Source: Tissierellia bacterium (GTDB lineage: Bacteria > Bacillota > Clostridia > Tissierellales > Tepidimicrobiaceae). From it: a stretch of DNA of 64,000 bases. Shown here piece after piece: positions 6,681 to 33,221 of the stretch. Each line of letters opens with the position of its first letter. The stretch's first letter is position 1. The notes below the pieces were generated by a model. It saw only the letters and a list, made by a program, of their open reading frames with translations. It was not told the origin of the DNA and made no database searches. The stretch covers positions 62,001 through 126,000 of the forward strand of contig JAAYHX010000023.1 of assembly GCA_012735215.1 (NCBI GenBank), given 5' to 3'. A program made the translations under genes and the position numbers.

Positions 6681-6971
6681 ATGATAAAGTTAAACTTACA
6701 ATTGTTTGCTTCTAAAAAAGGAGTTGGAAGTTCAAAGAACGGTAGAGATAGCGAATCCAAGAGACTAGGTGTAAAAAGAGGAGACGGTCAATTCGTATTA
6801 GCTGGCAATATCCTTGTAAGACAAAGAGGAACTAAAATCCACCCTGGAAAGAATGTAGGTAAAGGTGGAGATGATACTCTATTTGCTAAAGTTGACGGAG
6901 TAGTTAAGTTTGAAAGAAAAGGTAAGAACAAGAAACAAGTTAGTGTATATCCAACAGCTGAATTAGCATAG
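6681..6971 (+). CDS. rpmA: 50S ribosomal protein L27 with Prp-cleaved N-terminal extension
   Basis: 96 aa. The N-terminus [21 protein letters not shown] has the extended form seen in Firmicutes, where Prp cuts after the LQLFA-type motif (LQFFA in Staphylococcus) to expose the mature SKKG-type N-terminus that reaches the peptidyl transferase centre. The rest is standard L27 ([23 protein letters not shown]). It starts 3 bases after the prp stop, with AAGGAGGTG as ribosome binding site. Confidence 0.98.
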
Positions 6972-6999: not shown

Positions 7000-7026
7000 A
7001 GCTTACCATTATGGTAGGCTTTTTTT
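7000..7026 (+). terminator. Intrinsic terminator after rpmA
   Basis: AGCTTACC and GGTAGGCT pair around ATTAT and are followed by seven T. Ends the ribosomal protein unit. Confidence 0.85.
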
Positions 7027-7144
7027 ATTCAAATATGAAGTATTTACTATATATTAAATTTACTCATATAGTATTGTAGGCGTAAGAAGAGACTATTATC
7101 TATTATGATTTTAGATATAGTTTGGATACAGTACGCAGTTATAC

Positions 7145-7174
7145 GCATAATAATAAAGCCTAATAATATAGGCC
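7145..7174 (+). repeat. Stem-loop family, copy A (short)
   Basis: GCATAATAATAAAGCC at 7145-7160 is an exact reverse complement of 7310-7325, the right arm of copy B. GCCTA (7158-7162) and TAGGC (7169-7173) form a local hairpin. It can be read as a partial copy or as an alternative pairing partner for copy B. Confidence 0.5.
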
Positions 7175-7241
7175 GCACATTTACTTTCTACACTTTTATA
7201 TTCATTTAATATATAGAGTGAATTTAGAATAAAAGTTAAAA

Positions 7242-7326
7242 AGCATAATATATAAAGCCGCAAGCCCGACTATGGTGATACTTTCCAAATCTCGTAATTC
7301 GGAGGACAAGGCTTTATTATTATGCT
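7242..7326 (+). ncRNA. Stem-loop family, copy B: candidate structured RNA
   Basis: The left arm 7242-7259 (AGCATAATATATAAAGCC) pairs with 7310-7326 (GGCTTTATTATTATGCT) along about 17 base pairs with one bulge. The 50-base interior has GCAAGCCCGACT, CCAAATCT and GGAGG, and CCGA/TCGG could form an inner stem. There is no T run after it, so it does not look like a terminator. Copy C 40 bases downstream shares the order AGCC-GACT, CAAATCT, GGAG, GGCT, ATGCT, GGATT. I do not recognise it as a known riboswitch or ribozyme. Confidence 0.5.
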
Positions 7327-7365
7327 GGATTAATGTATTGTGTTGCTAATTTAAGCTGTAGTAAA

Positions 7366-7437
7366 AAGCATATAGTAAAGATGAGAGCCGACTTCACAAA
7401 TCTTGGAGATCTGAGGCTCGAACTTTGCTATATGCTT
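7366..7437 (+). ncRNA. Stem-loop family, copy C: candidate structured RNA
   Basis: AAGCATATAGTAAAG (7366-7380) pairs with CTTTGCTATATGCTT (7423-7437) over 15 base pairs with one G-T wobble. Inside, GAGCC (7385-7389) pairs with GGCTC (7415-7419), and ATCT/AGAT can form a small apical hairpin. Like copy B it contains AGCCGACT, CAAATCT and GGAG and is followed by GGATT. Two nested stems of this length in AT-rich intergenic DNA are unlikely by chance. Function unknown. Confidence 0.5.
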
Positions 7438-7593
7438 GGATTGTATGCAAAATTCCTAACAGATAGTGACCATATTATCATTAAAAAGGAATATAAAACA
7501 AAAATCAATAATTATAATTATTATTGTGTAAATTGGTGTATCATATATATAGAAATTTCTATATAGAAAATTGCAAACGATAAGGTGATGTGT

Positions 7594-33124: not shown

Positions 33125-33221
33125 GGGAGTAGATGGGTGCTGGTGTGCCCTCTGGTCTTCAAAACCAGCGCGAGGCGTTAGTAGCGTCTTGGGTGGGTTC
33201 GATTCCCACATACTCCCGCCA
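33125..33221 (+). tRNA. selC: tRNA-Sec (anticodon TCA)
   Basis: 97 nt including encoded GCCA. Anticodon stem CTGGT/ACCAG encloses loop CTTCAAA, so the anticodon is TCA, which reads UGA. Acceptor GGGAGTA pairs with TACTCCC, T arm GTGGG-TTCGATT-CCCAC, and the variable arm is long (about 23 nt with GAGGCG/CGTCTT pairing), all features of selenocysteine tRNA. It serves the selD-selA-selB genes 15 kb upstream. It is transcribed alone between its promoter and a terminator. Confidence 0.97.

Follow-up and report, generated by a model that had tools for sequence, protein, structure and literature searches.

The stretch analyzed here (the window; 64,000 nt of the genome of a Tissierellia bacterium) contains rpmA at 6681–6971, and obg starts at about 7594. 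The gap from the rpmA stop codon to obg was measured as 622 bp, and no convincing gene was found in it, as had been claimed from the sequence. The rpmA intrinsic terminator (7000–7020, + strand) is kept in relatives. It is part of the context, upstream of the insertion described below and outside the element. Two long nested hairpins had been predicted further downstream, and both folded as claimed. Hairpin A (7242–7327, + strand) had 17 outer pairs and a folding energy of −28.5 kcal/mol. Hairpin B (7365–7438, + strand) had 15-nt arms that were 93% complementary, plus inner stems, and a folding energy of −31.8 kcal/mol. On both strands, 7100–7480 folded better than any of 100 dinucleotide shuffles (z = −4.5 and −5.4). 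The words said to recur in the same order in A and B were also real: their alignment scored 40.2, whereas shuffled sequences scored 16.7 ± 4.9 with a maximum of 33 (n = 300). Neither hairpin was followed by a T tract, again as predicted. A third, partial copy had been described as an exact reverse complement of the right arm of copy B. This arm fragment (GCATAATAATAAAGCCT; 7145–7161, 17 nt, + strand) is an exact reverse complement, but its partner, 7309–7325, forms the right arm of hairpin A, and the fragment belongs to an A-type unit.

The genome of the window was searched with 7080–7480. There were 15 matches, 14 of them elsewhere; as one copy can yield several matches, the 14 are pieces of fewer copies. 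The further copies looked for after the original prediction, or pieces of them, were thus present at over ten places. Full-length relatives at these loci were imperfect palindromes of ~170 nt with nested stems. An intact unit has conserved asymmetric bulges, and often two units stand in divergent orientation. Both window copies align to full units across gaps: unit A (7242–7327) is an A-type palindrome that is 70/82 identical to the full A-type unit L013 across a missing inner part of about 90 nt, and unit B (7365–7438) is a B-type palindrome that matches the full L009 unit at 69/74 positions, with a gap of 99 nt. They are therefore units without the inner left arm and the loop. The B junction is at ACTTC, which the parent type L010 has on either side (GAGCCGACTTC and GATACTTCACAAATC), and the A junction is at TGG. 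Judging from the sequence, such junctions would be the expected product of slippage across a long palindrome. The spacer between the two units (7328–7364, no strand assigned) was read from the sequence, and its second half (AAGCTGTAGTAAAAAGCAT) is similar to the spacer (AAGCTGCAGTAAAAGGCAT) of L012, another copy in the same genome. At L009, L010, L011, and L012 of this genome, a motif like GGCTTTATAGATTATG was seen 50–80 nt downstream of B-type units; it could pair with the A-unit arm.

A covariance model (R1) was built from 19 units, and it matched unit B with 39.7 bits. R1 units were found in 14 of the 20 genomes of the family and in 41 of the 249 genomes of the order. About 370 genomes of the class from outside Tissierellales yielded none. 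A pattern scan of named genomes gave matches in Schnuerera sp. xch1, which is placed in Tissierellales, Tepidimicrobiaceae, and in three Tissierellia MAGs; its remaining matches, single ones in unrelated taxa, were taken as chance. Viral contigs, phages, and plasmids were also searched for units, with no match. Copy numbers were modest, up to about 18 model matches per genome with both strands counted. Several units were at contig ends, which fits repeats, since repeats lie there too. In genus g47 (G118 and G119), units formed tandem arrays of two to three (L126 1164–1825 and 10912–11332; L115 1291–2011). In G119, the arrays flank a ~9-kb gene cluster (with MatE, serine dehydratase, amino-acid permease, and other genes) and point in opposite directions. 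Rfam was searched at gathering and permissive thresholds and gave nothing credible in the region, in line with the fold not having been recognized at first; a new RNA class would also go unmatched. Elsewhere in the window, a selenocysteine tRNA was detected at 33125–33217 (RF01852, 76 bits).

The rpmA–obg gap was 133–206 bp in every relative whose gap could be read, and it reached 622 bp only in the genome of the window, where some 420–490 bp of extra DNA are present. The gap of the relatives contains the rpmA terminator, then a TTGACA–TATAAT-like promoter, and then obg. That promoter was not recognizable at 7480–7593 of the window, and promoter-like sites were found only at the shuffled rate. 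As the readable gaps of the relatives have no units, the window carries a lineage-specific insertion and not a conserved obg leader. At secA–prfB, a unit was present in G002 and G015, and none was present in the gaps read for G005 and others. Orthologous sites that are empty in relatives, as expected of a mobile repeat, were thus found at both places. At the mnmA site, the gap in the genome of the window measures 51 bp and contains a plain terminator-like hairpin, whose place is taken by a unit in G015. In the remnant present in G005, only the inner AAAAATGGGCTGCAT/ATGCAGCCCATTTTT stem is left. The unit in G002 is of a different subtype and reversed in orientation, and it adjoins a terminator-like hairpin. 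One unit seems to have replaced a terminator at this site.

A tree of 81 units was then compared with host genomes and with orthologous sites. The units clustered by host genome (21 changes versus 39 in shuffled data; 0/500), whereas no clustering by site was observed (19 versus 20; 150/500). Several intergenic sites have units in two to four genera, such as L047/L140/L127/L132 and L011/L042/L113/L110, and these units are not mutual closest relatives. Given the tree, these sites read as repeated insertion into favored sites, or possibly as conversion between copies. The units were mostly at gene 3′ ends: 21 were between convergent genes, 36 between co-directional genes, and 4 between divergent genes. 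Outside the tandem arrays, all 11 two-unit composites (full-model pairs) were divergent (−,+). Many units are single, and units A and B of the window point the same way, an exception that may have arisen by inversion of A through its arms.

What was conserved above all was the set of bulges, such as the additional T of GCCG-T-GATA and the bulged AT of TTTG-AT-TGAA. The arms themselves are rewritten between lineages: the outer stems are AAAGCATATAGCAAAG in the genome of the window, AAGGCAAAAAGGGGTT in G137, AAGAATAAATTTTCAA in G232, and TGGTCAAAGTTGTGAA in G222, each with its complement. Tails like GGTGG..CCACC are present in part of the family. Near-identical copies and an unoccupied site from the genus of G017 were used to look for the exact ends, but tails differed between lineages and flanks were too diverged; no target-site duplication was established there either. 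It was also considered that distant units might enclose a transposase gene and so form an autonomous copy. This candidate was rejected, as the intervening genes were ordinary ones (such as those for methionyl-tRNA synthetase, FlgK, and amino-acid transport).

The pairing of the arms was analyzed with the sequence-only alignment A1. Double-sided changes were observed in 30 of 46 pairs, and the covariation score was 0.426, versus 0.190 in shuffled alignments (0/500) and at most 0.112 with the partners slid. RNA read from one strand should favor G–U mismatches. For each of the 81 full units, the 5′ arm was aligned to the reverse complement of the 3′ arm with equal mismatch costs. Isolated arm mismatches were 21 G–U and 21 A–C, beside 5136 Watson–Crick pairs. 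Five lysine riboswitches from the same genomes were used as a control and gave 27 G–U and 4 A–C, a control that leans towards G–U because it was fitted to an RNA model. The strand-specific tolerance of G–U that is expected of a regulatory RNA was therefore not seen, although covariation was present. Copy pairs within genomes were also compared; the counts share copies and are hence non-independent, but the contrast was large. Copies at least 95% identical had 0 compensated and 38 uncompensated pair changes, whereas copies 80–90% identical had 121 compensated and 182 uncompensated ones, with about 8.5 compensated changes expected by chance. The absence of compensation in recent copies and its abundance in older ones indicated that settled copies decay without selection on pairing, and that pairing is renewed only along multiplying lineages. 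These results point to covariation that acts at the DNA level.

Altogether, the feature is very probably a non-autonomous mobile palindromic DNA element that was inserted in this lineage only and has since decayed. Its family is dispersed and order-wide, has empty sites, covaries with no G–U bias, accumulates uncompensated recent changes, and clusters by genome. Covariation combined with recent decay and clustering by genome fits a mobile palindrome, for which pairing is kept in the multiplying lineages and lost after insertion. Of the two readings offered originally, the small mobile palindromic repeat is the one supported by the many dispersed copies, the lineage-specific insertion, and the clustering. 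Several points weigh against it. No transposase or autonomous copy was found among the loci examined, neither a target-site duplication nor the exact element ends were established, copy numbers are modest, the copy-pair counts are non-independent, and the multi-genus intergenic sites might instead reflect old vertical inheritance, with copies converting one another.

A second reading, which we regard as improbable, is that the units are repeats of the REP/REPIN type moved by a Y1 HUH (RAYT, TnpA-REP) transposase. Like the REPINs of the REP–RAYT systems of Pseudomonas and others, they are non-autonomous palindromes that often occur in inverted pairs between genes (PMC3116915) and spread within genomes, and REPINs are thought to act as single-stranded hairpins (PMC3116915, PMC2817692, PMC8266576). 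Y1_Tnp genes were also found in 18 of the 20 genomes of the family. REPs adjoin their RAYT genes, but only one weak unit was present in 30 Y1_Tnp loci, which were read with flanks of up to 1.5 kb in both directions. A Y1_Tnp (RAYT-like) gene was accordingly rejected as a unit neighbor, and G005 has units with no Y1_Tnp match. The units differ from REPINs in their conserved bulges and low copy number as well, and their length of about 170 nt is far above the 20–40 bp of REPs (PMC3733652). The only Y1_Tnp gene in the genome of the window (L058, about 1433–2262; G000 C20:130325–130621) is a 287-aa open frame. It has CYH in place of the usual HxH, which suggests a possibly degenerate HUH motif, and there is no unit close to it. 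In G002 and G015, a second, shorter palindromic repeat (AAGACAAGGGGACGGTTCTCTTGTCTT) was seen close to several units (L042, L043, and L049), and it may be a RAYT-associated REP there.

The other original proposal was a tandem structured RNA acting on obg, that is, a cis-regulatory leader or attenuator with the hairpins as alternative or tandem sensor domains. The strong predicted fold, the alternative pairing offered by the arm at 7145–7161, and the strong covariation of the family would suit such an RNA. Covariation was indeed found, and relatives conserve the pairing, but they do so at other, unrelated loci and not at rpmA–obg, where nothing was present at the same place in any relative whose gap could be read. 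With G–U no more frequent than A–C, pairs lost uncompensated in recent copies, and no Rfam match, we gave this reading very little weight.

Equally little weight was given to selected bidirectional terminators that spread by duplication and were kept for termination. The preference for gene 3′ ends and the mnmA site, where a unit occupies the place of a plain terminator-like hairpin and the G005 remnant is reduced to the inner stem, agree with it. However, a separate terminator stands beside some copies, as at rpmA, and many subtypes have no T tracts. Promoter avoidance, as proposed for the placement of pneumococcal repeats (PMC3049150), alone explains the placement. A simple scan called none of these stems as terminators, which is uninformative for long-loop stems because its loop limit was 8.

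For the mobile palindromic element that we favor, the family would multiply inside each host lineage. Arm pairing would matter for multiplication, and a transposase or recombinase acting in trans most likely reads an extruded or single-stranded DNA hairpin. Once inserted, a copy would decay neutrally. Long palindromes are prone to deletions between short direct repeats that remove one inner arm, and the short copies of the window would have arisen in this way. Some copies were apparently co-opted as terminators. Alternatively, fold-back copying during transposition could renew the pairing, but this process should erase the bulges. The arms are rewritten yet always paired and the bulge positions are fixed, so the element might be recognized by the shape of the folded DNA instead of its sequence and be moved by a novel enzyme, an idea that we hold only tentatively and think rather doubtful. 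Integron attC sites would be comparable in principle to such a shape-recognized palindrome.

The family was also compared with other known repeats. EFAR of Enterococcus faecalis is palindromic, mostly ~170 bp, with stem-loops in variable assemblies at intergenic positions, and its ends retain portions of the target stem. By description, the units resemble EFAR in palindrome, size, stem-loops, variable assemblies, and intergenic position. Their outer stems are common to the copies of one lineage and are thus not derived from the target, unlike those of EFAR. The pneumococcal BOX, RUP, and SPRITE are likewise small repeats, interspersed in the genome and enriched where genes converge. Among them, BOX is modular, and SPRITE is terminator-like and possibly co-opted (PMC3049150). 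They are set apart by description, being nearly confined to pneumococcus and close relatives, whereas the present family spans an order. Prokaryotic MITEs are likewise short, non-coding, and intergenic, with long inverted repeats and stem-loop potential (PMC10969869), but for this family no parent insertion sequence or target-site duplication was found. As the units did not associate with RAYT genes and a target duplication was not established, they were assigned only to a new palindromic repeat family of the REPIN/BOX/MITE-like general kind. No published description of it was found in the literature searched, outside which most subscription journals fall.

These results indicate that Tissierellales carry a family of long palindromic repeats that spans the order and is apparently undescribed. 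They also indicate that a mobile DNA hairpin can give rise to covariation, a signal commonly taken to prove a structured RNA. Two counts, G–U versus A–C mismatches and compensated changes in recent versus old copies, separate a DNA hairpin from an RNA, and they could be used to screen other orphan "RNA motifs".
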